Part shown: one piece after another, positions 11,266 to 49,277 of the stretch
Numbering within the stretch: the stretch's first letter is position 1
Layout: each line of letters begins with the position of its first letter
Assembly (NCBI GenBank): GCA_028571685.1
Contig: CM053148.1
Location: 84,838,001-84,902,000, forward strand
DNA from: Heterohyrax brucei
Taxonomy: Eukaryota; Chordata; Mammalia; Hyracoidea; Procaviidae
Direction: 5' to 3'
DNA length: 64,000 nucleotides
Made by a program: the position numbers and the translations under genes
The notes under the pieces: model-generated
The model's database searches: none
What the model was told of the DNA's origin: nothing
The model's input: the letters and a program-made list of their open reading frames with translations, nothing else

Positions 11266-11404
11266 ACTCTTTGTGAGTACTGGATAGAAGGGAGTTCAGA
11301 AGTTTCTTTATATGTTAGCATTCCTTAAGGAGAAGGAACTTTTAGTACTAAGAAAGAAACTAGCTAAGAATTTTTTCTACAGTTATTAACTATATCGTAC
11401 TCAC

Positions 11405-12794: not shown

Positions 12795-12974
12795 CTAAGA
12801 TACAATACAAAACCCACATTAAAATACAAGTCATCTCTAACACTTTTCTCCCAACAGAGATTCTTTGGTCTTAAGGCAGTATAATTAGAGGAAGACAGTT
12901 ATTTTTGGAGACACTGCCTGCTTTTTACAGGGTGTAAAGAAACATTTAAGTTTCCAAATGTCTTTTAAAAAGAA

Positions 12975-13165
12975 ACAAAAACTCATTGTCAGGGAGTTGA
13001 TACTGATGCTTTGTGATATTATAGAATAGAGTAGAACTGTCCCATAGGGTTTCCAAGGCCGTGAATCTTTGCGGAAGCCAACTTGGAGAACAGCCAGCTG
13101 GTAAGTTCAAATGGCCAGCCTTTAGGTGAGCAGCCAAGTGCTTAACAGCTGTGCCATAAGGGCTC
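12975..13165 (-). mobile_element. AfroSINE in copy B intron 3 (shared with copy A)
   Basis: Reverse AfroSINE ('cagggagttgatactgatg' tail; 'gcacttggctgctcacc'-type head on the reverse). The A-copy equivalent is 43990-44195, in the same intron with the same neighbouring sequence ('aagtttc..aa.g.tctttt' on the left). Confidence 0.8.
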
Positions 13166-13378
13166 TTCCAAGTGTCTATGACTCCTACTATTTTATTGAT
13201 CATTATAATGAGACCGTATTTTTGAAATTGGGAACATACATTTTCTACAGTTTCTAAGGTGCTTTTATGTCTAAAGCAGCCATCAAATCATCTGAAGATT
13301 CTCCCTCTTAAAGTAGTACATTTATCAGTTCAAATTTTTTAATAGGGCTTAGGTTTTATTATGAAAGTAACTTGTGGG

Positions 13379-16300: not shown

Positions 16301-17236
16301 GACATACCATCCAGAAAAAAATTCAGTGAAGACACAGTTATTGTGACAATTAACCACCAAGACCTCATTGACGTACACAGAGCTTTTTACCCATCAACAG
16401 ACAAGTACACCTTCTTCTCCAATGCACATAGAACATTTTCCAGAATAGACTGTGTGTTAGGACATAAAGCAAGTCTCAACAAAATCCAAACTGTTGAATT
16501 ATTACAAAGCATCTCCTCAGAACACAAAACCACAAAAGTTGAAATCAATAGCAGAAAAAAAAAAAAGAAAGAAAGAAATTTGAATTCATGGGAACTGAAC
16601 AACACCTTGGCCAAAAATCCATGGGTTATAGAAGAAATCAAGGATAAATTAAAGAAATTTATGGAATCAAATAGAACAAAAACACATCCTATGAGAACCT
16701 ATGGGATACAGCCAAAGTAATGCTCCAAGTTCAGTTTATCTCTATAAATGCACACACCCAGAGTGAAGAAGTGATCCAAACCAAAGAATTAATCACACAG
16801 CTCGTACAAGTATAAAGAGAGCAACAGAGGAGCCCCTCACACACCAGAAGAAAACAGATAATGAAGATTAGAGCAGAACTGAATGAATTAGAGAATAGAA
16901 GAAAAGTTTAAAAATTAACAAAACCAAAAGCTGTTTTTTTTTAAAAGATCAATAAAATTGATAAACCATTGTCTAGACTTGCAAAAGAAAAACTGGAAAG
17001 GAAACAAATAAGATGAATAAGAAATGAGATGGGAGATGTGTCGACAGACCAAACTGAAATCAAAAGTATTATAACAGAATACTATGAAAGACTGTACTCT
17101 AAACAGATTTGAAAACTTAGAGGAAAAGGACAAATTTCTAGATTCACAATACCTACCAAAATTATCACAAGTAGAAGCAGAACAACCTAACAAACCCATC
17201 AAAAAGCAAGAGAAAAAGTATTTAAAAAAAAAAAAA
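13379..17236 (+). mobile_element. L1 LINE in copy B intron 3, truncated in ORF2
   Basis: Order on the plus strand: 5' UTR from 'tgggagtggaaccacgatgg' (13379) to about 14500, ORF1 about 14640-15330, spacer, and ORF2 from about 15840. Frame 16013-16720 includes the endonuclease blocks 'ITILNIYVANIRASKY', 'VIVGDFNPSLS' and 'YTFFSNAHRTFSRID'. ORF2 ends around 17200 in an A-rich tract before any RT motif. It sits only about 25 bp from the exon-3 donor of copy B. Inactive. Confidence 0.85.
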
Positions 17237-17260
17237 AACTACCAGCTAAAAAGATCTCAC

Positions 17261-17392
17261 CTAACTCATGGGCTGTAGGAAGGCAGCTTGGAAACCATTA
17301 TCTTTTATGACTGAGCAGCTTCTGCTGGGATCACACATAGTTCCATGTTCAGCAAACCCCAATCTGTCACACCTTCTGGAACTATATAAGTT
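17261..17392 (-). pseudogene. ADAMTS1-like copy B, exon 3 (first half of zinc motif)
   Basis: Reads ...[22 protein letters not shown] in frame, then a one-base deletion removes the frame just before the expected TTAHELG. Acceptor 'cccag' and donor 'gtgag' remain. The first Cys of the exon is now Tyr. Confidence 0.87.
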
Positions 17393-17659
17393 CTGGGAAA
17401 GACAAGAATGTAACCTGATTAAAACGGATAAAGCATGAACCTTGGGTCTAAAATGGTTGACCAGGTGACTTCAGATATATGTTGGGGCATCTACAATCAT
17501 TGTTGACTTGTCCTTTAGAAGGACTTCGTAGAACTTGCAGAAATGCAATTTAAGTGCAAAAGCACTGGTGTCAGGTTTATATATATATATTTATTTGTTA
17601 CAACGGAGACAGAAGCTCCTATGATTCTGTCATAAGTGGTATCATCTTCCTGCATTCCT

Positions 17660-18004
17660 CAGAGTGAAAAGAATTGGTGTGTCATAGTGCTCAGCATCCT
17701 GGTCACTGGGTGAATTGTGCTGAATTTTCCAGTCACAGAAGTTTTTCAGTAAGAGGTCAGCATTCAGAAGTCAATCCGGGCCCATTCTCTTTCTCATAGA
17801 TGATCAGGGTCTTCACTACCTCCAGGCTAAATGAATGCCGAATGCTGGGGTGTTTGAACAATCAGGAGGCCAAGGAGAACAAGATAAGAAGGTAGTGCTC
17901 CAGGCCACCACCATGGACATCGGCCACTGACTTGTCGGCCACAAGCGTGGTTTCCACATAGCAGGGCCTGGACTCAAGGCGCTTCACTCTCAAGCTTCCA
18001 GTTC
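17660..18004 (-). pseudogene. ADAMTS1-like copy B, exon 2 (prodomain end and catalytic domain)
   Basis: Begins [12 protein letters not shown], so a furin-type R-V-K-R is kept here, then [19 protein letters not shown]. It contains in-frame stops (TGA after LASLAS-like residues; another after LTSEC) and length changes. The donor GT has become GA. Clearly dead. Confidence 0.88.
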
Positions 18005-18824
18005 CTGTAAGGAAACAAGGAAGGTAATTTTCTCATAGGCATTCTGTCAAAGGATAGTTATGTTTGCAGGATATGAGGTCTGACGATTCTGTAAACTAAA
18101 CTGTTCTAAGTGCTACATACCTCATTGTCTAATATCACTATAGTCACCTTTGAGGTACTCCCCTTGGGAGGCTATGTGCCAACACCAGCACCTAGTCTAC
18201 CCCTCAAAGGAATACTGGAACTGTTTCTGGAATGGGCATTGTGCCTGGTGAATGTGGCAAGATTGAGAATTTAATTGTATAGCTATCTGTGGGGGATTTT
18301 TTAGCCAGTAAACAAATAACTCTATTGGAGCACTCTACTCACCTGATCTGGTCCCCAGTGACTTTTTTTGTTATCCGAAGATAAAGAAAATACTGAAAGA
18401 AAGACATTTTGATGACATTCAGGACTTCAAAGGGAATACAATGACTGCTTTGATGGCCATTCCGGGAAAAGAGCTCAAAAATTACATTGAAGGGTGGACT
18501 AGGCGATCACATACGTGCATAGCTTCCCAAGGGGAGTACTTCAAAGGTGACCTGAGTGATATTCAGAGATGAGTTATGTGGCACTTGTTCTAGAATGAGT
18601 TTACAAACTTAATGATCAGGTCTTATACTTAGGGAAAGTCTAACTTGTCAAAGCAAAACAAAAACACACCCGGAGCAACAATAACAAAAATATTTGTATG
18701 TCTTTTTCACTGAAGATGTTATAAGATTTTTCCTTTAAATAAAGAGATCTGGTTCTCCTGTGAAGGATCAGACTATGTGTTTCGGCAAGCTGGGTTTTGG
18801 CTGTCTTTAAACTCCTCCTATTCC

Positions 18825-18850
18825 GACTCGACGGCACTTGGCCTTGGTTA
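18825..18850 (-). mobile_element. Tiny SINE-tail insertion in copy B intron 1
   Basis: 'ttccgactcgacggcacttgg' is present here and missing from the paralogous place in copy A (about 45395-45410, 'aactctcccatatgaac'), so it is a clean short insertion. Confidence 0.7.
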
Positions 18851-19439
18851 TCTGCACAAGGCAGAATGCAATTATCCTCCCTAGCTGTTCTAAAAACCTG
18901 GTGCAACAGCAGCCTGAAGAACTCCCTGAGCTGCTTTGCACAGTTCAAGACTCCTGTCCTGAAATAGATCATCTGGCTCCATGTGGAAGGTCCTGGGCAG
19001 GGCCAGCATGGCTGCTAAGTGGCAGGGACGAAGGAATCTGCTCTGAGCTCTTGTTCTACAAGTTCCTCTGGTGTGTGCTCATGCCAACTCCAGACACAAG
19101 GATGACTTACTCAGCCCAGCAGCCTACTGACTGACTCCCATGGCCCCAGAGAAATAAGTTCCTGCCTTGGTCTGCAGTTACTTTCTCAAAAGGAGACCAA
19201 GGGCTCTGGATAGACACCCCGTGGGATGTTCTAAGACAGGCAGTGGGTAAATTACCGCTTCCATGTGTAGACTCGCAGGGTAATAAAGTGGAGAATTCCA
19301 AAGAAGAGAGCCACAAGAACATAAGAGAAAAGGACACTAAGATAATAGAACAGTAAGACCTGGGCAGTAAATACTGCAGAAAACAGAGACTGGGAAATGC
19401 TTAGCAGGAAGAATCAGTGAGTCTGTACCTTGGACAGCT

Positions 19440-19498
19440 TAGCCAGCCAGCCAAGTGCTGTCGAGTCAGATCTGACTCATGGCGACCCTTTAGGAGAG
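19440..19498 (+). mobile_element. Short SINE-tail element in copy B intron 1
   Basis: 'gccaagtgctgtcgagtcag' then 'atctgactcatggcgaccc'. Copy A instead has a reverse AfroSINE at almost the same site (45985-46115), both splitting the string 'cagcttaggacagactaatta'. Confidence 0.8.
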
Positions 19499-19954
19499 CC
19501 TAATTAATGCAGTGATAAGCAGAGCAAACCGGGAGCAGGATAGTTGTCTTGGAGGTGTAGGGCAAACTGAGCAATGACCTCTTAAGTAAGTTCTGCTCAG
19601 CCTGCCACCAATAGTTGTTGTCAGTCTCTTAAGGGGCATTGGAGTAGAGGGCAGCAGCCTGCAAAGCAGAGATCACAAGGCAACTGCCCAGAGCCGGTAG
19701 CTACGTAACCCTGAAATCACCGTATTTTTCATTCCTTCTCGTGCTCTGCCTTCCTCTGAAGACAGGGTGAGAGTCCAGGCAGCTGGTTCAAAACATAGCA
19801 CAAAGTTGCAATCACACCAAAGACTACACACAAGCCTTAAATTTAAATGAACAAGGATGGCAAGAAAGCCATTGTTCAGTTTCCTCTAAGGCACTCCACT
19901 GATGTGAAAAGAATGGGATTATTAGTTATCCCAGGTCAAAAGGGTTCACTCTAT

Positions 19955-21215
19955 TGTTGTTGTTATGTGCTGTTGAGTGGGCTGCAAATCATAGCAAACC
20001 TATGTACAATGAAATGAAACACTATCAGCTCCCGAGCCAGGACCATAGTCATTATTACACATGAACCCTTATTGCAGATGCTGTATCAGCCTACCTCGGT
20101 GGGGGTCTTCCTCCTTTTTGCTGACCCTCTAAGAAGCTTGGTGTCCTTCTACAGGGATTGATTCCTCTTGGCAATGTATCTAAATTAAGTAAGATGTTTC
20201 ACAACAATCTTCATAAAATGAAGATTTATATCTCCTGTTTGTCATCAGCTAGAGCAAGAGGATACTCGGTGCTTTACAGTCCAGACAGTTGTGCATCTGG
20301 GCTGTCTCTTTTGTTATATCTATTTAGACTTTATGCTGAGCAAATAATCTGAGATGCTAGACTATATGGAGAAAAGAGGAATTTCAAGATTAGAGAATGA
20401 GTCACTAGAAAACTGTATTAGGCAGATGACACAATTTTGCTTATTGAAAGTGAAGAGGACTTGAAGCACTTACTGATGAAGATCTTAGATCACAGATGTC
20501 TGCATGGATGCTCCTGAACATAATAAAAGAAAAATTCTCATAATTGGAACAATAAGCAGAATCACAATAAGTGGTGAAAAGATGGAGGTTGTCAAAAATT
20601 TTATTTTAGTTGGATATACAATCAAGACTCACAGAAGTAGCAGGCAACAAATCAGAAGACACACCACACTGGACAAATCTGCTGCAAAACAACTCTTAAG
20701 TCCTGAAAAGCAAAACTCTTAAGTCCTGCAAAAGAAGTCTTAAGTCCTGAAAAGCAAAAGCACCTCTTTGAAGACTAAGATGGTCTTGACTGAAACCACA
20801 GTATTTCAATTACATCAAATGTGTGTAAATATTGGACAATGAATAAGGAAGACTAAAAATTCATGCCTTTGAATTATCATGTTTGCATAGAATGTTGAAT
20901 ATATCATGGACTGTCAAAAATAATAACAGATCAGACCTAGAAGAGCTACAGCCAGAGTGATCCTTAGAAGCAAGGAAGGCCAGACTAAGACTTACATACT
21001 GTGGACAAGTGGTCAGCAGGCATCAGTCCTGGGAGAAGGACATCATGCTTGGTTAAATAAAGTGTCAGCAGAAAAGAGGAAGACACTCAACAAGATTGAC
21101 TGACACAGTGGCTGCAACAAAGGGCTCATCCATTATGAGTGAGGCATAAGACCTGGAGGTGGTCACAGGGTCACTATGACTCAGAACCTATTTTGTGGCA
21201 AGTAACAACAGAAAC
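19955..21215. mobile_element. RTE/BovB LINE with 5' inversion, copy B intron 1
   Basis: 19955-20215 is RTE 3'-type sequence on the minus strand; 20225-21215 is RTE on the plus strand ('GRRHNFAYWK'-like region, then 'CAHWTNLLQNNS'-like). The same inverted arrangement at the same intron position occurs in copies A (46590-47770) and C (30305-31520), so it was inherited from before the duplications. Confidence 0.85.
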
Positions 21216-21454
21216 AGCTAATGACCCTTCATTATTACAGGAAATGAAATTTCTTTTTCTTAGCAGAATTTGATGAATTTACTCTTGAGTTCACCACCCT
21301 GGAACTCCAACCATGTTTCTGCCTTCCAGGTCTCTGTCCCTTCAGTAGACACCTACTCACACCAGCCAGCAGGAGTTTACCCACAAGGTGTTCAAATGGA
21401 GAAAGACAGAAGGAGCTGAAAAGAGAAGAGAAAAGACTCTTCTCCTGCTGGCAC

Positions 21455-22135
21455 CTTTTGGCTGTCCAGTGAGCTCTGATTCCCAATAATGTTGTGACGC
21501 CTCAGTCCTGGCATCCTCAGTTTCTGGCCCTGTATCACTGGTAGGCAGAATTTCATCATCCACTACACTACACTTGAAGTCACCACCTCGATCCTTCTGC
21601 CTTCTCCCTAGGACATGGAACTGTAGCTCCTGAAGCTGTACATCCTCTGCTTCTAAGGGTACAAGGGACTCAGTGTCATTGCTCGGTGCAGGCTGGATGA
21701 AGAACACCTTGTCCTGCAGGTGGAAGGCGCCACTCACTCCCTGGCAGAGGCTGAGGGCCACAGTCGATTCTGGGTCTCTATTGGTGACGGTGCCAGAGTA
21801 GAAGCAGTGCTCCGGGTCTCCAAGGGGCTCTGAGAACCGCCCCTCAGATCCTGGTCTGTGCCCTACTGCATGGAGTGTGAAGCTGAGTGCCAGGAAGCCG
21901 TGGTCTGACTGCAGCTCCAGGTGCAGCTGGAGTCCAAAGACATCCAGGCTAAGGCGTATTGTCTCCTTTCCCGTGGTGAGCTCCAGCGTGGGCAGCACGA
22001 ATTCCTCATCCCCTCGGCTGAGCTTCCCAGTATGCAGGGCACCGCCAGCAGCGCTGCAGCTGCTGCGACCAACAGCAACACGGGTGCAGGCTGTGAAGTC
22101 TTGGGCCACCACAGTGGCATCGCGTTCACAATGTC
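21455..22135 (-). pseudogene. ADAMTS1-like copy B, exon 1 (signal peptide and prodomain)
   Basis: The hydrophobic leader (VLLLVAAAAALLAVPC) lies in one frame and the prodomain (DEEFVLPTLELTTGKE, HCFYSGTV, LCQGVSGAFHLQD, FIQPAPSND, CSVVDDE) in another, so there is one frameshift after about residue 40. The family start ATG is ATT here. The prodomain frame is otherwise open to a plausible donor ('aaaag|gtgcc'). The cysteine-switch-like CSVVDDE is closer to the usual ADAMTS1 form than in copy A. Confidence 0.9.
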
Positions 22136-29436: not shown

Positions 29437-30056
29437 CTGAGGGAATATAGAGCCAGTGTGGTGGCTCTGTTGCTGGCAGCCTACACCTGTGTTGCTGCTA
29501 CTGCTCACAGTACGTGACTGAGGACAACCAGGAGCTGGTGCAGCCTCTGCTGGAGCTCACAGTGGAGAAACTAGACCAGGAGCCGTAGGCTTTATGCCTT
29601 TGTTTCCAGGTACACCTGGAGCTGCAGCCAGACCACTGTTTCCTGGCACCCACCTTTGCACTCCAGACCATGGGGCACAGACCAGGGCCTTAGGTGCAGT
29701 ACTCAGAGTCCCACGGCAAACTGGAGCACTGCTTCTACTCTGGCGTTGTGAATGGTGGCCTGCACTCAGCCTCAGCCCTCAGCCTCTGTGAGGGCATGTG
29801 CTGTGCCTTCCACCCACAGGATGAGGGTTCTTAATCCACCGTGCACCTGCCAATGACATCGTGCCCCTCAACACCTCAGCAGCTACAGTGCCACATTCTT
29901 CCGAGGAAGGTGGAAGCATGGAGGCAGAGGGTCCAAGTGTGGTGTTGTGAGTGATGAAACCCTGGCTACCAGTGGTGTGGGACCAGAAGGTAAGGTCACC
30001 AGGGCTTAGGGGTCACATCAAGCCTGGGAGCCAAGGTGCCATAAGACAGCCAACAG
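29437..30056 (+). pseudogene. ADAMTS1-like copy C, exon 1 (prodomain)
   Basis: Recognisable pieces include [41 protein letters not shown] and ALSLCEG. They are spread over different frames with in-frame stops ('agtacgtgactgagg', 'gccgtaggc', 'ccttaggtg'). The family start ATG is lost and the exon-1 donor has changed from GT to GC ('caacag|gcacc'). Dead copy. Confidence 0.88.
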
Positions 30057-30304
30057 GCACCAGCTTGAGACGAGTTCCTCTGTATTCTCTTTTCATTTCC
30101 CGCTGTCCTCACTTTCTCCATTTGAAGGACCTGGTAGGTTGACTCCTGTTGTCTGGCATGAGTACGTGTCTGCTGAAGGGCTATACATACATTCAGGGAA
30201 CCAGAAATGTGGCTGGAGTTTCAAGGTGGCGAACTCATGAGGGAGTTGATCAAATCCCCCTAGAAAAAGTAATTCCATTTTCTGAAATGATGAATGATCA
30301 TGAG

Positions 30305-31520
30305 CTGTTTTTGTTGTTAGCTGTCTTGGTATCAAGTCCTACTCACAGTGACCCTATGTCCCGCTGCCTGGGCCATGCTCACAATGGATGTGATGCTTGA
30401 GCCGATTGTCACAACCGCTGTGTTAATCAATCTCGTTAAGTGGCTTCCTCCTTTCAGCTGACCCTGTCATTGACCAAGAATGATGTCTTCCTCTTGGGCC
30501 TGAACCCTCCTGACAACATACCCAAAGTAAGTAAGTTGTAACCTGTCTTTCTTTGCTTCTAAGGAGCATTCTAGTTGCACCTTTACTATGACTGATCTGT
30601 TCTTACTTTTGGCAGCCCATGATATAGTTGGTATTCTTCACTAACACCACGATTCAAAGGCATTAATTCATCTGTCTCCCTTAATAATTTTTCAAAACTT
30701 GCAAGCTCATATGATGCATCTGAAAACACGATGGCCTGGGTCAGGCCCATATTTGCCCTCAAAGAGACATCTTTGCTTTTCAGCACTTAAAAAAGCTCTT
30801 TTGCAACATATTTTCTGAATGTAATTGGTCTTTTGATTTCTTGATTATTGCTTCCATGGATGTTTATTATGGACTCAAGTAAGTGAAATCATTGACATCC
30901 TCAGTCTTTTTTCCATTTGTCACACTGTTGCTTATTTGTCCAGTTGTAAAGATTTTTGTCTTTGTTATGTTGAGAAGCAATCCATACCAAAGGCTGTGGT
31001 GTTTGATCTTCATCAGCAAGTATATCAAGGGCTCTTCACTTTCAGTAAGCAAGGTTGTGTCATGTGCCTAGCATGGGTTTTTCATGAGTTTTCTTTCAAT
31101 CCTGATACTCCTTTCCTCATCATATAGCCAAGGTTCTCAGGCTATTTCCTCAGCAAAAAAATTGGAATAAATATATATGGAAAGGAGATAGCCCTGATGC
31201 ACACCTTCTTCAAACCATTCAGTATTCCCTTGTTCTGTGACATAATCAACAGAGGACAAACTTTTCTACAGGTTAGGGTGAAAAATCTTACTTATTTTGG
31301 ACATGTTGCCAGGATGGATCAGTCGCTGAAGAAAGACATCATGCTTGTCAGGATACCAGTGAAAAAGAGGAAGACATGGAAGAGGATGGACTGACACAGT
31401 ATTTGCAATAATTGGCTTGTGTATAACAACAATTTGTGCTCCTGGTGCAGGAATGGATAGTGTTCTGTTCTGTTGTAAATAGGTGTGCTATGATTTACAA
31501 GTGAATCAACAGCCCCTAAC
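30305..31520. mobile_element. RTE/BovB LINE with 5' inversion, copy C intron 1
   Basis: 30305-31130 reads as RTE on the minus strand and 31200-31520 on the plus strand ('acatgttgccaggatggatc' and on). This is the mirror image of the arrangement in A and B, as expected for an inverted gene copy. Frames 30867-31052 and 30586-30786 are RTE pieces. Confidence 0.85.
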
Positions 31521-32225
31521 AACAACACAGTGAAACCCTTTTACCTGGGAGAATTGGTAACTCCTTGACTGATGGTTAGATTATATATTAATACAGCAAT
31601 CAATGCCTCTGGAAAATAGTTTAAGTATGGTCAAAAGTACTTGCTAGTGGCTGATCAGCAACAGTAAGTGCAAATGGACTTTGAAATCGGAGCATTCATA
31701 CTTATGAGCTTTGAAGACCTACATAAAATGTAGAAGAAGCATATCCTTTGCTGTTGTCTTAGGCTAAAGGGTTAAATCTGGCTCTGAAATAGAAGATGTA
31801 AATTAACTGGATTGAGATTATCATGTGTCACTAGAAGTGGGTTGTGAAATTATATCCAAGTGGCAGATTCGACATTCAAATAGTGTTATATCGAGCACCT
31901 ACTGTTGGCCGGTGTGGAACCCTGGTGGCATACTGGTTAAATTTTCAACTGCTAACCAAAAGGTCAACAGTTTGAATCCAATAAGCATTCCTTAGAAGCC
32001 CGATGGGGCAGTTCTACCGTGTCCTCTAAGGACAATATGAGTCAGATATGAGTTCATGGCAATTGAATTATTATCTTGTATCATTCTAGACAATGAAGAT
32101 ACACCAGGAAAAAAAAGTGACCAAAAGCTCTCCTTACACTGAAATTAGCTAAAGGCGAGATAAGGGTACATACACAAACAATAAAACAGTAGATAAGTTT
32201 TACAAATGTCTAAGTATTACAAGTT
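31521..32225. other. Copy C inter-exon remnant with AfroSINE at 31914-32075
   Basis: Exons 2-7 of copy C are missing between exon 1 and exon 8. This stretch probably holds intron-7-type sequence, without a match I can prove. The AfroSINE (plus) has 'accctggtggcatactggtt', 'ctaaccaaaaggtcaacagtt' and 'gatggggcagttctaccgtg'. Confidence 0.6.
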
Positions 32226-32428
32226 CTTGGGTAGTATAAATGGTTAAAGCATTTGGCTACTGATTGAAAGACTAAAAGTTCAAGTCACCCAGAGGTGTCT
32301 TGGTAGAAAGACCTGTCAACCTACTTGCTAAGAACCAGACATCACCAGTTCTGTTTTAACACACATAGTGTCATGAGCAACCTAGTGGTAACTGGTAATG
32401 GCTGAGATGTACTGTAGTCACGGTACAA
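32226..32428 (+). mobile_element. AfroSINE, second subfamily
   Basis: 'gtataaatggttaaagcatt', 'ggctactgattgaaagacta', 'acccagaggtgtcttgg' and 'agaaagacctg' give the head and body of the longer AfroSINE variant. The tail is worn ('gagcaacctagtggtaactgg'). Confidence 0.65.
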
Positions 32429-32626
32429 GTCAGAAAGAGAGAATAAAATGTGTACGGAGTTCTGTTTTAACTGGGATGGTCAGGAAAACGGAAGTCTGTC
32501 TGTACTCCACCTTATAGCATTGCCTCTTCTAATGATAACGAGGGACAGTTTCTTAGCTATGATTGCACCAGTACCTTCCCTTGTTTATGTATTAACATTG
32601 GGTGTCTGTTCTCTTTTCCTGATTGA

Positions 32627-32793
32627 GGGTGGTACTCCAGGTAGCCCAGATTCCACCTCTGTCTCTGTACAAGGACAGTATGTGAAAACTGGCTGCAGTC
32701 GTATCATAAACTCTGGAAATTTGATAAATGTGGTCTCTGTAGAGAAAATGAATCTACACATAATAATACAACAGGATCAGTTACTAACACAAA
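32627..32793 (+). pseudogene. ADAMTS1-like copy C, exon 8 (Cys-rich/spacer junction)
   Basis: Reads GGTPGSPDSTSVSVQGQYVK then TGCSRIINSG, matching the ADAMTS1 Cys-rich segment, but three family cysteines are replaced (G, S, Y). A deletion after INSG shifts the frame of the following KCG-CGGNGSTC-like region. Confidence 0.88.
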
Positions 32794-32961
32794 GGAAGTT
32801 TTAAAACGATTTGCTCTCAAATTATCTTATGAGATTTAACTTATTTACAGGCCTAGTAAAACATATAATAGTTACTGATCATTAACATGTCTTCAAGTGA
32901 TGTCAAGGAATCAGCTAGTGAGCAAGGGCTCATTGTATCTATTTTTCTCCCTTTCACACCT

Positions 32962-33732
32962 GGGAGTCATTATAATGTCACAATTCGTACTGGAGCCATA
33001 AACCTTTAAGGGAAACAGAAGAATCAGTGAGAAGCAGAACAAACAGAACCTTTCTTACCATCACATCTGCCAATGGCAGATATCTCCTTAATGGTAACTT
33101 CACCTTGTCTACTTAAGAGCAAGACATCACACACCAGGTAGCAGTTTGAGGTACAGTGGATCCTCAGAAGGGCTGGAAAAGTACTGTTAGTTTTAGCTCA
33201 GTGAAAGAGAGTTTAACCATCCAGGTTCTTATCATGGACAATGCCCTTCCACCTTAAGATGAATATACTTACTTTTTGAAGGGGAAGAAGTCTTTTAATG
33301 CTATCCTTACTTGTCAGAAGAGATTACTGAAGAACGGGGAGAGTGTTCCAAGTCATGTGGATCTGGGTAATAGCAGACACAGGTGGGATATAGAGACATC
33401 AACAGGCAGCCTGCTACAGACTGTGCCAAGGAAGGGAAGCCAGCAAGTATCAGGCCCTGTGCACAGTGAACTGTCCCTGCTGGCATCTACAGAAGTAGTC
33501 ACCATGTTCTAAGACTTGTAGGACGGGTTTCAAAAAGAGACTCTTGAATACTAGAGAATTTGAAAAAAACAAACCAAAATATTAAAGGGAGTCCTTTGGT
33601 TAGAAAACCAGTACACCAGATAACAACCCAAGTCTAGAATACAGAACAGACATGTTGGTCCACGAGAGCTGTGACACTTTAAAGAAACCTAAACATTACG
33701 TCGACTTTTGCACAATCCTGGACTGCAGTTAA
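32962..33732 (+). pseudogene. ADAMTS1-like copy C, exon 9 (spacer and C-terminal repeats)
   Basis: DNA aligns with exon 9 from 'cctgggagtcattataat' (PGYHDI region) through the KKGKKSFNAI block. The end, at 33661-33732, keeps HESCDTLKKPKHY and DFCTILDCS followed by TAA at the family's normal stop. In-frame stops occur early ('cttaagagc' where the family has TTA GAG). A 108-bp L1 piece interrupts it at 33548-33655. The central thrombospondin repeat reads ESVPSHVDLG, so its CSxSC cysteines are lost. Confidence 0.87.
33548..33655 (+). mobile_element. Short internal L1 fragment inside copy C exon 9
   Basis: Closely matches 59034-59140 in the ORF1-ORF2 region of another L1 ('caaaccaaaatattaaaggg', 'agtcctttggttagaaaacc'). 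Neither L1 end is present. Confidence 0.85.
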
Positions 33733-38607: not shown

Positions 38608-39169
38608 AACCAATATGTCTTATTACTGAGGGTATTTTTGACAGTCTGTGTTTTGAACTTTCCTTATACATCAATACTCTTCTGGTAATGTGTCAGAAAA
38701 TACTACAAAAGGAGCTGGCTGTTGAAAACCTAACAAGTAGCAATAGAGCGCTATGTGATACTGTGGTGGAAAAGGAGCCTCACATTGAAAGACGCTCAAA
38801 ATGACACTAGAGAAGAGTTACTGCCTCAAAGGAGAGTGCTCTTTATGTTGTGATGGAGTAAAGCTTTGGGACACACATTCACTGATGTGGTATGACCATG
38901 AGGAAAAAGCGCTGCAAATGTTCACCAATAATCAATAGGTGGAATGTAATGTAGTTATTCTTAGAAGACACATATCAATAGCTCTGAAGTATATGCAAAT
39001 TATAGCAAAATATTTTACTATTAATGAAAAATACTGTGGTCAAGTTGATTCTGACTCATACATATAGAAAAAGACATTTTCTGTTATAGTTGAAGAACTC
39101 TGAAGATATTCAGCAAGATACGATTGTTGGGACAGCTGCTGGGGATAGACCTGCTACACCTCAGTAACC

Positions 39170-39880
39170 TTCACACTGTGAAGTAATGCTTAAATGTTTC
39201 TTTAAAGGGTCACAGCTCTCAATGACCCACACCCTGCAATGTGGCACAGACAATACAAGGTTCTCTTTTGTAATCTTTCCTACAAGACTTAGAACCTGGT
39301 GAGTACTCTCCGAGCTGTCAGCAGTGGCAGTCCACTTCGACACAGGGACTGGTGCTGCCTGGCTTCACTTCTACTTCCTTAGGCAGGGTGGCTGCTGCTG
39401 TCTCAGTGTTCCACATATCTTCCTTGATACCCAGCTGCACATGACTTGCAACACTTGTCTCATTCTTCAGTAACTTATTTGGAGAAGTAGTGTTAGCATT
39501 GCGAGATTCCTTCTTCTTCACAAAAAAAGTGTATTCAATTTTAAATGGAAGGGCATTGCCAACAATAAGGATGTGGATGGTCAAGAGTGCCCTGAGTGGG
39601 CCAAAGCTCAGAATTCTTTCCAACACTGAGAAGGATCCACTGTATCTTACAACATTACCTTTGTACATGATGTCTTACTCTCAAGTGGACAAGGGGAAGT
39701 TACCATTAAAGATACATATGCCATTGGTACCTTTAATGATAAGGAAGGTCCTAGGGTTGCCATTAGTCAGATCCGACTCAATGGCACTTGGCTGCCTCTC
39801 GTATTTCTGGATCCCTTCTGATTCTGCTATTTCTCTTCAATGTTTGTGGCTCAAGTGGGAATTATGACAATGATACCCAG
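39170..39880 (-). pseudogene. ADAMTS1-like copy A, exon 9 (spacer and C-terminal repeats, decayed)
   Basis: Minus frame 39318-39668 keeps spacer motifs: MYKGNVVRYSGS, LERILSFGPL, VGNALPFKIEYTFFVKKKES. Upstream of it the frame is broken by a SINE piece (39757-39797) and a TGA where the family has ..TLEQD.. ('acttgagagtaagac'). The central thrombospondin repeat reads ETSVASHVQLG, so the CSxSC cysteines are gone, as in copy C. The last repeat survives only as ESCDPLKKH in another frame. No usable acceptor AG is obvious at 39880. Confidence 0.87.
39757..39797 (-). mobile_element. Short SINE-tail element inside copy A exon 9
   Basis: Reversed 'ccaagtgccattgagtcgga' + 'tctgact' inserted where the exon would continue RGSRN|NGSFLAIK. 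The flanking exon DNA on both sides remains alignable. Confidence 0.8.
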
Positions 39881-39974
39881 GTGTGACAGCAAGGATAAAA
39901 AAATAAAAGATACAATGAGTTCTTGCTCATGCATTGATTCTTTGATTTATTTTTAAAGACTCTTTGTGCTAGGA

Positions 39975-40135
39975 ATTTCTATTATTTTCTTACATGTGGA
40001 TCCATTTCCTCCACAGATACCACATTCATCAAGTTTTTTTTCCAGAATTGATGACATGATCTCAGCCAGCTTCAATACACTCTCCTTGCACAAAGACAGA
40101 GGTGGAACATGGGTGACATGGAGTACCATCTAAAC
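39975..40135 (-). pseudogene. ADAMTS1-like copy A, exon 8 (Cys-rich end, broken)
   Basis: Acceptor 'ttttccag' is followed by GTT TAG. Compared with the family (GTT GTA GAT GGT) one base is missing, which shifts the frame and puts a stop at the second codon (40132-40130). Beyond it, in the original frame, DGTPCHPCSTSVFVQGECIEAG is followed by a TGA (about 40064-40062) replacing Cys. An extra A in an A8 run then shifts the frame again before DECGICGGNGSTCKK. Three lesions lie in about 160 bp. Confidence 0.9.
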
Positions 40136-40417
40136 CTGGAAAAGAGAACATGTATCCAATATTACACATCAACAAGGCAGAGAGAAAGTCTTCCTCATTA
40201 GCATTAGAAGCACCAGTGTAGTAAGGGGGAGTAGAGACAGAGGTCTGCTTTTCTGACCATCCTAATGAAAATGAACTCTCTACACATACTGCATTCTCTC
40301 CTGATTTATACTATGATTACAATACTTATCCACCATTACTGGTTGTCAATGGGTTGCTTATTCTTCATGAGGTCACTATATGAGTCAAGGCAGAATTGGG
40401 CTCATTTAGGGTTTGTG

Positions 40418-41207: not shown

Positions 41208-41357
41208 TGACAGTACTCAGCCATGTGTAAAAACTTATCCATCCTTTTGCTATTTGGGTATGGCCTTTATTTCCCCGTTAGCTAACATCAGTGAAAGCAG
41301 AGCTTTTGATCAGTTTAATTATGAGTGTATCCTTAGTGCCTCAAATGATACCAGGCA

Positions 41358-42158: not shown

Positions 42159-42334
42159 CATGGGCTGCCAAATCAAAAAAATTCCAAGGTCTTTGATTTC
42201 ACAGGTAAACTTGCACCGGTTATCTGGGCTAATGCCAGCAAACCTCGGTATGCACTGAATCTCAGACTCGTTCCCAAAGAAATTCATTGGAACGTGATTG
42301 TATACCTCACACCGTTCCTCCCCGAAAGTTTTTC
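42159..42334 (-). CDS. Copy A exon 7 (first part of Cys-rich region)
   Basis: 'tttccag' acceptor, then [27 protein letters not shown] and ending WQPM before 'gtaattt' donor. The family form is KTFREEQCEAHNE..YAGVSPKDRCKLIC..LQPK. A Trp of the family is Cys here (EIQCIP). If intron 7 were retained, the frame would run on to a stop at about 42072; an AATAAA on the minus strand at 41271-41266 could serve such a transcript. Confidence 0.85.
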
Positions 42335-45300
42335 CTGGAAAAAAGAAATGTTGTCAGTTTCCAACCATTAACCACCTATTTGGGGGCATGTCATTCTCAC
42401 CCCCTTCAAAATCCTGGGGTCCACATCTACTCACCCTTAATATGTGGACAGCTCTCAATGTTGCAGGAATTGTAGCCCACTCTAAGGCCTTCACAGGACT
42501 CTCCTCCATTCTTTGGGACAGGGTTGTCACACTTCCTTGTCCTATGCTGAACTCCTCCACCACATGTCCTTGAGCAGTCTGTCCAGGGCTCCCACGACCC
42601 CCACATTCCATGAATGGGAGTCTACATGGAAACACAAAGTGCCATTATTAGACTTGTGTAGAGGTATTTTGGAGAATAAAACAAAAACACATGCAACACA
42701 GAAATAATTATAAAAGCTAGATCTCTCTCATCTGGCCAGAAGATGCAGGTGGGCTTTCTTCAAGTTGATGTCAGATATTTCAGTATCATTCTGAGACACG
42801 TGGGGATGCCAAGAGTTGGAATCATCTAGGTGGCAAATAATTGTTTTTTTTCCTTTCCTTTCCTCTGGAGGGGTTCTTCTTTTCAGTTCTAGCTTTAAAG
42901 AACATGAATGTATCAACAGAAAAACTCACAAGCTTTTTTTCAGTCTTGTCCACACACTCGCCATGGATACACCATTTATTATCCCCACAGTTGGTTCCAT
43001 CTGCCCAAGGAGAGAATTTGGTGTGGCATGACCTCTTTCTGCTGAATGGGACAGTGCACCACAGTGTCTTGCAGGTACTGGCTGTACGACGACAGTGCCT
43101 GTATGCCTCCCCAAACATAAACTGGCACTGCTGATTAACATCATAGAGCGTCCCTGGGAAATCGGAGGGTAGTTGTATGGGTCTCTGTGGCTTGTCCATC
43201 AAACATCTCCCTGCAAAGAAAATGCAAGCCAGCTGCTAGTAAATAACTCGTAGAGTTATGTAGGGGATAGATGACAATTTCAGAGAGCACTCATCAAGTG
43301 AGACAATACAAAGCAAAGTGATCTGAAAACTAGGGAGAGTTTTAACACCATGCTAGACAAATTGAAAACTCTGGAAAGGATTTTATCATGAATAGGGTAT
43401 TTCCCTGTTAAAAGTGCCATGAAATTATTCTTCTAAAAATTTTAACGACTCCACTTTTGGATCTCTTCAACTCAAAGCACAGTATCACATTGGGAACTAA
43501 GATAAAAAATTGATGATTTTTGTGGTGAAGATCAATTTTGAAGGAGTTAAAAGAAAAGGAGAAAAAGGAAGAAAAAGAAGAGAGAGTTTGTTTAACTGTA
43601 AGGATGTAATCAGAAGGTGGGATGTCATCTAGAAAGAGCAGCTTGTGCTTCTTACCATGACCGTTGTTCAGAAATGAAGTAATCATGTAGGCACTGCAAA
43701 GAGACCAAGGCTGGCTGAGGTTCAAATTGGTGGTCAATGGAGACATTATATGGAAATCTGGGTTCAACTCTTTAAAGTCAGCACACCGGACTGCATCATC
43801 ATGTGGCATGTTAAACAAGTGGCCTAAGGAGAAATGTCAAAACCCACATTAAAATATAGATCTCCTACAGCTTTTTTTTTTCCCTCCAGCAAGGATTCCT
43901 TTGTCTTAAAGTGATATAACTAGAAGAAGGTATTTATTCTCTCAGATAGTCAGCTTTTCACATGCTGTAATGAAACATAAGTTTCTAAACGTTCTTTTTA
44001 AAAAAAGTCATTGAGTAGACTGCAACTCATAAGGATCCCTTAGAACACAGTAGAAGTGCCACATGGGGTTTCCAAGGCTGTGAATAGCACCACATCTTCT
44101 TCCTGTGGAGTAAGTGGTGGTTTCAAAGTGGTGACCATTAGGATGGAAGCCAAGTGCTTCATCATTGTGTCATCAGGCCTCCTCCAAATGTCCATAGTTC
44201 CTTTACTTTATTTAACATTAAAATGTGATGTCATTTTTTGAACCTGTAAAAAAATGTTTTCCACAGTTTCTAAGATGCTTCTTCGGCACCTAAAAAAGCC
44301 AGCATATCACCTGAAGCCTCCCTCTTAAATTAACATATTCATTTATCAGTATGAATTCATTAATGGAGCTCACTCTTAATGTAAAGCAAACTTACCTAAT
44401 TCATGGGCTATAGTGAAGGCCGCTCGTAAACCATCATCTTTTACAACTGAGCAGCTTCTTCTGGGGTTACACATAGTTCCAGTAAAAGCCCTTCCTACAA
44501 TGCTACGTGTAACGCAGCTACATAAGTCCTAGGAGTGACAAAGACGGAACTTTATTAATAGAGATGAAACATGACTTTGGGATAAAACTTGATGGAGTGT
44601 GTCTACATATGTTTTGGAGCATCTATGTTCATTGTTGTTAACCTGTCCTTTAGGAGGACTTTGTAAAACTTGCAAAAATACAATATATATGCAAAAACAT
44701 TGGTGATGATTCTTCACAAATGTTTGTTTGTTACAAAGTAGGCAGAACCTCAGATGGATCTATCACAACTGGCATCATCTTCCTGCTCACCTGTCTGGTG
44801 AAAAGAATTGCTGTGTCATAGTGCTCAGCATCCTGGTCACTGAGTGGGTTGTGCTGCTGTTGCCAATTGCAAAAGTTCCTCACTGTAAGATCACCATTAC
44901 AGGTCACTTCTGGTCCCTTGGCTTTCTCATAGATGACCAAGATCTTCACCACCACCAGGTTAACTGAATTCCAAATGCTGGGGTGTTTGTATATCTGGGA
45001 GGCCACCGAGAACAAGGTGAGAAGGTAGTCCCTTAGGCCACTACCATGGAACTCTGCCATCGACTGGTCAGCAACAAGCATGGTTTCCACGTAGTGGAGG
45101 CTGGACACAACAGGCATCTTTCTTACATTTCTAGTTCCTGTAAGGAAACAAGGAACGTTGTTTATCAGCAGTCTATCCAAGAATACTTAAGTCTGTAGAG
45201 TCTGTAAGGAAAGCCCAACCGCTCAAAGCAAATAAACAGAAGTGCACCTGGAACAACAGTGACAAATATATCTGCATCTTTTTTTTCCAATGGAGATGTG

Positions 45301-48300
45301 ATACTTTTAAAGCTTTCTCCTTTAAATAAAGAGGCCTGGTACTCCTTCGAAATGACATGCTACATTGTAATAGAGTTGCTTTTGGCCATCTTTGAAACTC
45401 TCCCATATGAACATGGGGAATGCATACTACCTTCCCCAGCTGTAGTAAAATCTTGGGACAAGGGCTGCCAGCAGAGTGTCCTGAGTCACTCTTCAAAGAC
45501 CAAGGATCCAGTCTTAAATGAGACCATCCAGCTCTGTGAGGAAGGCCCTAGGCAGGGCCAGGGTAGTTTTCAAGGGGCAGGGCCTGAAGGAATCGGCTTT
45601 GTGCATTCGTTCCAGGAGTCTCTGGGGTGCGTGCTTATGCCAACTCCGGGTACAAGGATGACCCACTCAGACCAGCAGCCTATTGCCTCACTTCTACCGC
45701 CCAAAGGAAGTAAGTTCCTGCCTCAGCCTCCAGTTGCTATCTCAAAGAAAGCCCAAGGGCTCTGAATAGACACCCAGTGGGAAGTTCTAAGCAAATTACT
45801 GCTTCTGTGGGAAGACTTGTAGGGGGATAAAGGGGAAAATTCTAAAAAAGAGACACTTGATAAAATTCTAAGAGAAAAAGACACTAAGGTGATAAAATAG
45901 CAAGATCTGGGCTGTAAGCAGTGTAGAAAACAGAGCCTGTGAAATGCTTCGCAGGAAGAATTAGGGAGTATGTACCTTGGGCAGCTTCCCAATCCACTGT
46001 CACTAAGTTGATTCTGAGTAACAGTGATCCTACAGGACAGAGTAGAATTAACCCACAGAATTTATGGGGAGTGCCCATCAAGTGCACTTAACCACTGTGC
46101 CCCCAGTTTCCTTTGACAGCTTAGGACAGACTAATTATGGCAGTGAGAAGGTCTGTAATCTGGGAAGCAGGATAGCTGCTGCAGAAAGGAGGGGAGAGCT
46201 GAAAAGGACCACTGAGTAGATTCTGCTGAGTGGAGGAAGAGCGCTGCCAACAGTTGGTGTCAGCCTCTTAAGGGGCACAGGCAGCAGAGGGCAGTGGCCT
46301 GCAGAGCAGTGATCACAAAGAAACTACCCAGGCCCTCTGGCTGCCCATGCCAGGATCACCATCACTCCCATTCCTTCTCCAACTCTGCCTTCCTCTGTTG
46401 AGAGCCCAGACAAGTGAGTTACAAAATGTAGTGCAAAGTTGCAACCAGACCTAAGAAGACATATGCAAATCTTAAAAACAAATGAGCAGAAATAGAAGGA
46501 GGTCCCTTGCTCACTTTCCTCTAAGGAACACCACTGATGTGAAAAAGAATGGGGTTGCCAATTCTCTCAGCTCAAAAAGTTGCACCCCAGTGTTGTCAGG
46601 GGCTCTAGAGATGGCTGTGACTCATAACAGCAGAACAGAACACTGCCCAGTCCTGTGCCAGGACCACAATCACTATACGTAAACCCATTCTTTCAGCTAC
46701 TAAGTCAGTCCTTCCTGTTGGGGTTTTCCTCTTTTTCATTGACCCTCTAATAAGCATGATGTCGTTCACCAGGGATGGATCCCTCCTGACATGTCCAAAA
46801 CACGTAAGATGTTTCACCCTAATCTGTAAGAAAGGGTTAGTTGTCTGTGTTCTCTCTATTATTGGACTGTCTAAAAGGATACTGAATGGTTTAAAGTTTG
46901 TAAAAGTGTGCATCAGGGCTGTCTCTTTTCATTATACTTATTCAAACTATGCTGAGCAAGAAGCTGAACAATAAGAAGAAGAAATGAGTATCGGGATTAG
47001 AGTAAGACTCATTAAAAACCTGTTTTAGGCAAATGATACAATCTTGCGAGCTGGAAGTGAAGAGGACTTGGAGCACTTAATGATAAACATCAAAGACCAG
47101 CATGGATTGCTTCTCAACATAAAGAAAACACAAGTTCTCAAAACTGGAACAATAAGCAATATTGTGAAAAGCAGACAAAAGACTGAGATTCTCAAAGATT
47201 TCATTTTAGTTGGATCCACAGTCAACACCCATAGAAGCTGCAGTCAAGAAATCAAGAGACCCATTGCACTGGATAAATCTACTGCAAAAGACCTCTCTTC
47301 AACAGGGAAAAGTAAAGATGTCTCTTTGAAGACAATGGTGGGCCTGACCCAAACCATAGTATTTTCAATCACATTATATGCACTCAAATGTTGGACAATG
47401 AAAAAAGACTAAAGAATTAATGCTTTTGAGTTGTGGTGTTGGCCAGAAATATTGAATATATCGTGGACTACTGAAAGCAAGAACAGATCAGTCCTAGAAG
47501 AGGTACAGACAGAACACTCCTTAGAAGCAAGGAAGGCCAGACTGCCACGTATATACTTTGGATGTGTTGCCAGCAGGGACCACTCCTGGGAGAAGTACAT
47601 CATGCTTGGTCAAGTACAAGGTCAGCAGAAAAGAAGAAAGAACAAAAAGAGGGATTGACACTATGGCTGCAACCACGGGCCCAAGCATAACATCCATTGT
47701 GAGCATGGCCCAGGACCGGGCAGCCTTTCCTTCTGTAGGATATGTGTCGCTATGCGCTTGAACAGATTCCACGGCACCTAAAAACAAAAGCATCTTGTGA
47801 TTATTTATTATTTCAGCAACTGGAATTACTTTTTCTAGCAGGATTTGATAAACTCACTCTTGAGTTCACCACCCTGAAACACAAACCGCATTATTGGCTT
47901 CCAGGTCACTGTCCCTTTGGCAGACACATGCATACTCACGACAGCCGACAATTGTTTAGCCACAAGGTGCTTCAGATAGAGAAAGCAGGGACAGTGAGAA
48001 ATGAAAAGAGAAGACAGAAAAACTCTTCTCAGGCTGGTACCTGTTGGTTGGCTTGGGCGCCCTGGCTCCCAGCCTTGCTGTGACCTGTGAGCCCAGGATC
48101 TCTTGGAAGCCCTGGTTGCATCGGCCAGTGCAGGGCACTTAGGGCTTTTACTGTCGCCCATGCGCCTCCTCCGCAGGACATGGAATTGCAGTCGCTTCGA
48201 CTGCTCCTCCTTCACTTCCAAGGGGACAAGGGACTCCGTGTGGTTGTCTGGTGCAGGCTGGATGAAGAAGGTCTGGTCCTGCAGGTGAAAGACTCCGCGC

Positions 48301-48695
48301 ACGCCCTTGCAGAGATTGAGGGTCGCGGCCGAGTTTGGGTCTCGGTTAACAGCCCCAGAGTAGAAACAGCGCGTCAGGTCCTCAACAGGCTCTGGGTGCA
48401 GCGCCTTGGCCTCCGGTCTGCGCCCCACTGTCTGAAGTGTGAAGCCTGGAGCTAAAAAGCTGTGGTCAGGCAGCAACTTCAAGCGCAGTTGGAGACCAAA
48501 GGCATCCAGGCTAAGGAGCACGGTCTCCTTTCTCCGAGCGCGTTCCAGCACCGGCTGCACCAATTCCTCATTCTTCTCAGCCGAGAGCACCCGGGCGCAG
48601 GGCGCCTCCAGCAGGGCTGCAGCTGTTGCGAGCAGCAGCAACAGGCGCACAGGCTGTGAACTCCGGGGCCACCATACCTGCTCCGTCTTCCCCAT
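42159..48695 (-). CDS. ADAMTS1-like copy A: 649-codon open frame over exons 1-7
   Basis: Joining 48695-48041, 45137-44791, 44528-44396, 43823-43656, 43210-42930, 42621-42435 and 42334-42159 gives 1947 nt with no stop. Every junction has GT/AG and the phase expected for ADAMTS1. By family knowledge, ADAMTS1 is a secreted, furin-activated zinc protease that cuts aggrecan and versican in the extracellular matrix. Seen here: signal peptide, prodomain, [12 protein letters not shown] zinc site with a following Met, eight disintegrin-region cysteines, an intact TSP1 repeat (CSRTCGGG) and half of the Cys-rich region. The next codons are Val then stop in exon 8, so the product would be about 650 aa against about 967 in human ADAMTS1, lacking spacer and C-terminal repeats. 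A TATA box is kept. It could be a young pseudogene, or a truncated protease gene. The initiator at 48695 is the ATG equivalent to the family's internal MGN; longer readings begin only at GTG. Confidence 0.7.
42435..42621 (-). CDS. Copy A exon 6 (first thrombospondin repeat)
   Basis: [20 protein letters not shown], then [20 protein letters not shown] and SCNIESCP. All six repeat cysteines and the WxxWxxW run are present. Acceptor 'catgtag', donor 'G|GTGAGT'. The frame tool missed it because the exon is open but carries no start; the longer shadow frame 42354-42635 is not the coding one. The exon matches its copy B counterpart at 11405-11588, which has a stop. Confidence 0.88.
42930..43210 (-). 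CDS. Copy A exon 5 (disintegrin-like region)
   Basis: [15 protein letters not shown]..., [33 protein letters not shown] and [16 protein letters not shown] end at a 'gtgagt' donor. All eight cysteines of the region line up with ADAMTS1. The N-glycosylation-type NKT of the family is DKT here. One codon shorter than the family at the 3' end. Confidence 0.9.
43656..43823 (-). CDS. Copy A exon 4 (second half of zinc motif, Met-turn)
   Basis: With the last base of exon 3 it completes [13 protein letters not shown]. It continues [20 protein letters not shown] and [21 protein letters not shown]. All zinc ligands and the catalytic Glu are kept. 'cttag' acceptor, 'g|gtaag' donor. Confidence 0.92.
43990..44195 (-). 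mobile_element. AfroSINE in copy A intron 3 (shared with copy B)
   Basis: 'gtcattgagtagactgcaac', 'tggggtttccaaggctgtga' and 'gaagccaagtgcttcatcat'. Equivalent to 12975-13165. Confidence 0.82.
44396..44528 (-). CDS. Copy A exon 3 (first half of zinc motif)
   Basis: Reads [35 protein letters not shown] and AAFTIAHEL(G). The length equals the family exon. The second Cys of the family (position 8 of the exon) is Arg, while position 5 has become Cys. Acceptor 'cctag', donor 'g|gtaagt'. Confidence 0.9.
44791..45137 (-). CDS. Copy A exon 2 (activation site and catalytic domain)
   Basis: Starts (G)[18 protein letters not shown] and continues [54 protein letters not shown] and [13 protein letters not shown]. 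The family furin site RKKR|FVSS has become [11 protein letters not shown], leaving only a minimal R-x-x-R. No stops. 'ccttacag' acceptor, 'ag|gtgagc' donor. Confidence 0.92.
45138..46589 (-). other. Copy A intron 1, part nearest exon 2
   Basis: No gene. It matches copy B 18005-19950 ('aagaatgggattattagtta'-type text, 'cctctgttgagagcccagac' versus 'ctgtcttcagaggaaggcag') and copy D 5119-5255. It contains a reverse AfroSINE at 45985-46115. Confidence 0.8.
45985..46115 (-). mobile_element. AfroSINE in copy A intron 1
   Basis: 'ccactgtcactaagttgatt', 'gtgatcctacaggacagagt' and 'gcacttaaccactgtgcccc'. Not in copy B, which has a short element at the same site. Confidence 0.88.
46590..47770. mobile_element. 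RTE/BovB LINE with 5' inversion, copy A intron 1
   Basis: 46590-46870 is RTE on the minus strand ('ctttttcattgaccctctaa'). 46870-47770 is RTE on the plus strand, with frame 47044-47412 giving '[20 protein letters not shown]' and then [13 protein letters not shown]. Same structure as B and C. Confidence 0.88.
48041..48695 (-). CDS. Copy A exon 1 (signal peptide and prodomain)
   Basis: [13 protein letters not shown], then the hydrophobic [19 protein letters not shown], then [75 protein letters not shown] and [11 protein letters not shown]. The polybasic RRRR is a second possible proprotein-convertase site. The cysteine-switch segment is KCPALADA rather than CGVVDDE. Donor 'acag|gtacc'. In frame without stops. 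Confidence 0.92.
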
Positions 48696-49270: not shown

Positions 49271-49277
49271 TTATATA
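49271..49277 (-). promoter_or_regulatory. TATA box of copy A
   Basis: TATATAAGGAAGGCACGG on the minus strand, 576 bp before the ATG, with GC-rich sequence and a CCCCGCCC-like site upstream ('actccgcccct' at about 49343). Confidence 0.7.

Follow-up and report, generated by a model that had tools for sequence, protein, structure and literature searches.

ADAMTS4 ends after its spacer, without C-terminal TSP1 repeats, and ADAMDEC1 is shortened at its C-terminus. The latter is described in PMC4963849 as a soluble ADAM-like protein that arose through tandem duplication of ADAM28. The same source describes the snake venom metalloproteinases as a multigene family derived from a reprolysin gene, in which C-terminal domains were lost along the series P-III to P-II to P-I and the 3′ region was replaced by a non-homologous exon carrying a stop. 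For ADAMTS1, PMC10033314 describes a matrix-bound protease, active in ovulation and with placental expression, whose tail decides its substrates. It also reports a laboratory truncation series (MDTCS, MDT and MD): MDTCS equals or beats the whole enzyme, human ADAMTS1 cut to MDT retains its peptide kcat/Km with versicanase activity down about 64-fold, the metalloprotease domain alone is inactive, and heparin does not affect the secretion of variants without the spacer. Here we analyze a 64,000-nucleotide stretch of the Heterohyrax brucei genome (the window; C9:84838001–84902000) that contains an ADAMTS1-like gene, copy A. We propose, with a probability of about 0.7, that copy A is an ADAMTS1 that has lost its C-terminal part and is maintained by selection as a predicted short secreted metalloprotease, within a lineage-specific tandem family.

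Copy A and its relatives share with full-length ADAMTS1 and its laboratory series the exon layout and the propeptide, catalytic, disintegrin and TSP1 domains. Unlike the laboratory deletions, the truncations in this family are natural and sit in separate, diverged genes, and copy A has a short Cys-rich remnant. With the snake venom metalloproteinases the family has in common a multigene reprolysin origin, C-terminal loss and 3′ replacement. Those enzymes are ADAM-derived and belong to venom, whereas the present family is ADAMTS1-derived and mammalian, so the comparison is one of how such systems work; copy A does not descend from the ADAM-derived venom family, its nearest relative being ADAMTS1. 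ADAMDEC1 is a single gene from an ADAM, whereas the present family is an array from an ADAMTS.

Structure, decay and constraint in copy A

Exons 1–7 of copy A join at the expected positions into 1947 nt with 0 stops, with AG at 6/6 acceptors and GT at 7/7 donors (Table 1). The zinc motif is whole, the TATA box is present (at 49277), and all disintegrin and TSP1 cysteines are kept, as the sequence-only reading had stated. The sole lost cysteine lies in the catalytic domain, and 27 of 28 cysteine columns (a column being a position where 17 or more of 19 vertebrate ADAMTS1 sequences have Cys) are retained over exons 1–7. A new cysteine occurs at residue 339, three before the lost Cys 342, and is a possible disulfide shift. 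Identity to the animal's own ADAMTS1 is 92/115 codons in exon 2 and 25/57 in exon 7. Pfam searches recovered PF01562 (propeptide), PF01421 (reprolysin), PF17771 (ADAMTS_CR_2, in the disintegrin-like region) and PF00090 (TSP1), with the propeptide and a reprolysin domain bearing HExxHxxxxxHD and the Met-turn both present, and gave no match to PF05986 or PF19236 in the 649 aa at E 0.001, indicating no spacer. The catalytic-to-disintegrin part aligns end to end with solved ADAMTS-1 structures. In database searches the nearest matches, including the named top ones, are ADAMTS1, followed by ADAMTS5 and ADAMTS4, with snake enzymes distant. Given the missing spacer match and the broken exons 8–9, copy A is a descendant of ADAMTS1 and not a complete ADAMTS.

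The predicted product would comprise a signal peptide and propeptide, catalytic and disintegrin-like domains, the central TSP1 repeat and a decaying Cys-rich remnant of ~60 residues, about 650 aa in total. Splicing of exon 7 to exon 8 through the intact acceptor adds Val and then a stop, for a predicted canonical product of 650 aa. Beyond the candidate polyadenylation signals of intron 7, a further AATAAA is found at 39951. If exon 7 were read through into intron 7, the protein would gain a 28-residue hydrophobic tail that ends at a stop at ~42074 (window 42074–42158, − strand) and could serve as a membrane anchor.

Frameshift-aware alignment to the animal's own ADAMTS1 identified 0 lesions in exons 1–7 and 18 in exons 8–9 (one inside an insert). 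The sequence-only reading was therefore right that exons 8–9 are broken, but its count of at least four lesions was too low. Its frameshift with immediate stop was recovered, at the exon 8 acceptor, and is not counted among the 18, and its Cys-to-stop is at 40064; a 16-codon insert lies at 39799, presumably derived from a short interspersed element (SINE). All 18 lesions fall in the last 873 of 2820 nt, for which the probability is about 7e-10 if lesions were spread evenly, in agreement with the uneven distribution it had described. Loss of frame across coding exons, as expected of a pseudogene, is thus seen in exons 8–9, while exons 1–7 are free of it and their introns are kept.

Ratios of nonsynonymous to synonymous change (dN/dS, omega) were estimated against ADAMTS1 of the same animal and the duplicates of that gene. 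A value near 1 over exons 1–7, named beforehand as speaking against a maintained truncated gene, was not what we found: on the copy A branch, omega is 0.39–0.40 over exons 1–6 (bootstrap 0.29–0.54). It is 0.5–1.04 for exon 7 and 0.58–0.68 for exons 8–9, with both bootstrap ranges including 1. Copy A changes 62 of 271 vertebrate-invariant sites vs 134 of 301 variable sites, and the invariant sites changed amount to 17/37 in exon 7 vs 45/234 in exons 1–6. Exon 7 is thus probably a fast-decaying remnant and not part of what is maintained. The idea of early truncation followed by upkeep is therefore supported for exons 1–6, though probably not for exon 7, and the same split recurs in other copies; rather than surviving alone, copy A belongs to a truncated gene family.

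Table 1. Features of copies A, B and C in the window
Feature	Position	Strand	Remarks
Copy A TATA box (TATATAA)	49271..49277	-	TATAWAR pattern match
Copy A exon 1, signal peptide and propeptide	48041..48695	-	Pfam propeptide; 0 lesions
Copy A exon 2, processing site and start of catalytic domain	44791..45137	-	RKKR to RKMP
Copy A exon 3, catalytic domain, ending within zinc motif	44396..44528	-	
Copy A exon 4, remaining zinc motif (to about 43798) and Met-turn	43656..43823	-	
Copy A exon 5, disintegrin-like domain	42930..43210	-	Pfam
Copy A exon 6, central TSP1 repeat	42435..42621	-	Pfam
Copy A exon 7, first part of Cys-rich domain	42159..42334	-	Open, fast-changing
Copy A intron 7, candidate polyadenylation signals	41266..41319	-	ATTAAA 41319, AATAAA 41271
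Copy A exon 8 acceptor	40130..40136	-	Immediate stop (GTT TAG) after exon 7 splice
Copy A exons 8-9 remnant	39153..40135	-	Stops, frameshifts, insert
Copy B	29477..33729	+	Broken exon 1 (29477-30036), broken exons 8-9 (32601-33729)
Copy C, exons 1-6	11400..22102	-	At least 1 lesion in each exon
Copy C relic of new terminal exon	10964..11247	-	Start 11247, AATAAA 10969

The ADAMTS1-like cluster and its truncated copies

A search of the 3.49 Gb genome with ADAMTS1 protein uncovered an ADAMTS1-like cluster at C9:83.59–85.18 Mb, with more copies at 120.06–120.09 Mb. The cluster includes an intact full-length gene at C9:83588600–83598500, which is taken as ADAMTS1 (930 aa from the first in-frame Met), and a second, ADAMTS1B, at C9:85172200–85181200 (949 aa, 0 stops, RKKR site). 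The two upstream Met codons of colugo ADAMTS1 are absent from the animal's own ADAMTS1, in which the first in-frame ATG opens a hydrophobic signal peptide. Just outside the cluster, at 83.45–83.50 Mb, are ADAMTS5-like exons, so named on presumed synteny. On C9, a full-length open exon 9 is restricted to ADAMTS1 and ADAMTS1B. Among duplicates, 23 of 31 have an open exon 5, compared with none of 17 for exon 9 (Fisher p 2.8e-7; manual tallies in which fragments count as broken, three 120 Mb copies are included and one 97.7 Mb fragment is left out). Exon 5 is nearly full-length and stop-free (at least 85 of 96 residues) in 20 main-cluster duplicates, and exon 2 is free of stops in all 20 of them; copy A would be an early-branching member of this group. 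Exon 1 carries no lesions in 22 of 24 copies (A, C and the loci of the best genome-search matches, the end of exon 1 being unresolved in c22), the exceptions being C and a copy on C7; apart from these, exon 1 is broken in B and c23. A TATAWAR match lies 633–694 nt before the start-homologous codon in 16 duplicates (A and 15 others), with no match in 6 of 24 copies.

Thirteen duplicates were read as DNA over several exons. Eight of these (A, c5, c13, c4, c16, c9d, c10d and c17) are lesion-free in exons 1–5; the other five (B, C, c2, c23 and the C7 copy) are broken. Beyond A, exons 1–8 are open in c13, exons 1–6 in c4, c16, c9d and c10d, and exons 1–5 in c17; exons 1–7 of c5 are individually open, and its exon 6 to exon 7 splice creates a stop directly after TSP1. 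For c16, 48 of 115 codons of exon 2 are in the DNA read, and the genome search covers residues 3–115 without stops. Copies A, B and C all lie within 40 kb, and duplicates occur on both strands. Copy B has a lesion in each of its three found exons, and its exons 2–7 were not found in the window, nor were exons 7–9 of copy C.

Across exons 1–6 of the eight truncated copies, omega is 0.645, and a value of 1 is rejected (twice the log-likelihood difference, 2dlnL, 59.5). By part, omega is 0.52 in exon 1, 0.62 in exon 2, 0.99 in exons 3–4, 0.63 in exon 5 and 0.67 in exon 6. The broken exons 8–9 of six copies (A, B, c2, c5, c17 and c23) give 0.874, not distinct from 1 (2dlnL 2.2, p 0.14), and because frameshift-tolerant alignment favours similar codons, the real value may be higher. 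Restricting the comparison to A, c5 and c17 gives 0.61 for exons 1–5 vs 0.83 for exons 8–9, the latter not distinct from 1. Close pairs have omega of 0.46 (c4–c16), 0.50 (c5–c17) and 0.37 (c9d–c10d), with bootstrap upper limits of 0.60–0.68. On these sequence comparisons, dN/dS supports upkeep of a putative truncated core.

The zinc-binding histidines, Glu and Met-turn Met are invariant in 8/8 open truncated copies, A included. In exons 3–4, 28 of 97 codons hold one amino acid across the eight truncated copies, among them those of the three zinc histidines and the Glu, the Asp that follows the last histidine, the Met of the Met-turn and five cysteines. This pattern fits a kept enzyme with putatively shifting specificity, for which relaxed constraint is a rival explanation of the omega of ~1 in these exons. 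Divergence between c9d and c10d is 5.1% in introns, 9.9% in exon 4 and 2.3% in exon 2. Their exon 4, one of six exons examined, has 13 nonsynonymous changes vs 6.6 from the intron rate (p 0.018), which is suggestive only of positive selection beside the active site.

False assembly duplication (PMC9516828) was considered for the main copies and rejected, as dS (synonymous divergence) is at least 0.24 for every pair (exon 1; exons 2–6). The rejection does not extend to the C9:120.03–120.12 Mb block, which contains c9d (120.08 Mb) and c10d (120.05 Mb), separated by a dS of 0.08. Copies in this block score like those at 84.20–84.29 Mb on the opposite strand; the block may be a recent segmental duplication or an assembly duplicate, and order and scores suggest that c9d and c10d are near-duplicates of c9 and c10.

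In the protein tree, A groups with the other duplicates (support 99), then with ADAMTS1B (90), the own ADAMTS1 (84) and tenrec ADAMTS1 (95). As the tenrec sequence falls outside the group formed by own ADAMTS1, ADAMTS1B and the duplicates (84), the expansion seems to postdate the divergence from tenrecs. Codon and protein trees disagree on whether A or c13 is the first branch, and dN to the own ADAMTS1 is about 0.18–0.35 across duplicates (exon 1; exons 2–6). The expansion is not reported in the titles and abstract openings of the papers listed by searches of an open PMC library, and "ADAMTS" is absent from the main text of one Asian elephant and one dugong genome paper. The lack of close relatives of A and c4 among 5.8 billion proteins was considered as an argument against annotation and dropped. 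Among the 120 matches listed, the top ones reach 61% for A and 64% for c4, and at most 65% over shorter stretches; intact ADAMTS1B likewise has none above 86% (81% full length) among the best 120 of 639 matches. The animal's proteins thus seem absent from the database, and the absence of A and c4 is uninformative.

Loss of the C-terminal region and a new terminal exon

Near residue 815, at the spacer end, every one of the eight duplicate exon 9s read shows a deletion at the same spot: a single base is missing in A, B, c17 and c23, two bases in c5, c12 and c13, and three, in frame, in c2. No bases are lost there in ADAMTS1 or ADAMTS1B. The simplest reading would be a single early one-base loss with further loss later; a mutation-prone spot is the alternative. 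In c12 and c13 the spacer is open up to this spot, and c13 has a stop a few codons further; from exon 7 to residue 812, c13 compared with ADAMTS1 and ADAMTS1B gives an omega of 0.26 for the three. In A and c5, parts of the Cys-rich domain and spacer are lost to lesions. The series resembles the laboratory one, with c13 (and c12 as far as read) corresponding to MDTCS, and c4, c5, c16, c9d and c10d to MDT. The predicted c13 layout is also like that of ADAMTS4 in ending after the spacer; unlike ADAMTS4, c13 derives from ADAMTS1 and falls in an own-genome clade, and most copies read have lost the spacer too.

In c4, homology to ADAMTS1 ends a few bases into intron 6. Together with c16, c9d, c10d and the copy C relic, it shares a donor, an intron of 111–157 nt, a pyrimidine-rich acceptor and a new terminal exon with AATAAA 265–279 nt into it. 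Five of six aligned sequences share this exon, and it is absent from the sixth, c2. The predicted C-terminal ends are CPNNNSYSSVITKQSDASLQPTFP in c4, CPD in c16, and CPATKG in c9d and c10d. Exons 7–9 were not found in the DNA read past exon 6 of c4, c16, c9d and c10d. A broken exon 9-like place at 83749014, about 7 kb past c4 exon 6, may be a relic of c4. We also considered whether the new exon is the old ADAMTS1 3′ untranslated region moved near by deletion, and rejected this, finding no match to the available ADAMTS1 and ADAMTS1B 3′ ends.

Elsewhere in the window, a SINE-like repeat at 48870–49025, which separates the copy A TATA box from the start codon, is presumably an AfroSINE, and open stretches at 5531–5872 (−) and 15980–16720 (+) resemble what we take to be the LINE-1 ORF2 (open reading frame 2) endonuclease. 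Rfam at gathering thresholds gave no match within the window. On C21, at 52.5–65.2 Mb, nineteen reprolysin (ADAM-like) fragment matches, mostly with internal stops, suggest another decaying protease cluster.

Competing explanations and biological meaning

Several observations weigh against a maintained copy A. Its canonical furin site RKKR reads RKMP, with a weak RXXR (RNVR) left, so activation would need another route or be weaker; the site is also gone in c4, c13 and c17 and is retained in c5, c9d and c10d (c16 is unread there). The catalytic-domain Cys at residue 342 is Arg (window 44505–44516, − strand). The 62 of 271 invariant sites changed compare with 13 of 271 in tenrec ADAMTS1, about fivefold, which indicates weaker constraint. 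Dead copy C keeps its zinc motif and has a terminal-branch omega of 0.53, so a low omega reflects past constraint over most of a branch and not life today. Canonical splicing sets the copy A stop upstream of a possible exon 8–9 junction, and message decay is thus possible unless an earlier polyadenylation signal is used. Finally, c4, c5, c13, c16 and c17 were chosen for open-looking early exons; the eight of thirteen are therefore not a fair sample, and the genome-wide exon tallies are fairer.

The furin site, the cysteine, the excess of invariant-site changes and the low omega of dead copy C would all be explained if copy A had been a functional truncated gene until recently and is now a young pseudogene that has not yet acquired a stop. 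In a neutral simulation started from ADAMTS1B with substitutions only, the chance of no stop in exons 1–7 is indeed 0.275 after 2% change, but it falls to 0.043 at 5% and 0.001 at 10%; the dS of copy A's own branch is about 0.34–0.38. With its splice junctions, TATA box and zinc motif intact as well as nearly all cysteine columns, we consider recent death of copy A unlikely. Uneven decay by chance, or exons 8–9 taken from another, older dead copy, would mean that the truncated form was never maintained, and 2.0 kb do separate exons 8–9 from exon 7, in a duplicate-rich region with three copies close together. Their order and strand nevertheless fit one gene, chance alone would hardly confine every lesion to the last part, and a similar split recurs in c5 and c17, alongside the four copies open through exon 6 whose DNA, as far as read, showed no exons 7–9; we judge this explanation highly improbable. 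Gene conversion from a working neighbour could in principle keep exons 1–7 open without selection on A, given a dense tandem array on both strands. However, over exons 1–6 the identity of copy A to the 13 copies compared (several cluster copies are not among them) never exceeds 74.8%, and even the most similar 40-codon window differs at 10% of bases, leaving conversion a very slim prospect.

We therefore retain the reading of copy A as a maintained, truncated ADAMTS1. As the natural copies match the MDTCS and MDT series, the short forms would be soluble peptidases with altered targets: secreted, activated zymogens that retain peptidase activity, may no longer bind matrix or cut large proteoglycans efficiently, and could diffuse freely to other substrates; the surroundings of the active site would be diversifying. 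Somewhat more doubtfully than not, we envisage a mammalian birth-and-death array of some twenty short, free proteases derived from ADAMTS1, with stepwise C-terminal loss, one branch with a new terminal exon and diversifying exons 3–4, that would parallel snake venom metalloproteinase evolution and perhaps serve reproductive or defensive secretion. Since ADAMTS1 has a role in ovulation and placental expression according to PMC10033314, reproduction is the natural place to look. If this picture is true, tail-less paralogues have been selected while the lost exons drift near an omega of 1, so the catalytic core would be releasable for new work, and the series of short forms would provide ready sequences for mapping the residues that set specificity.

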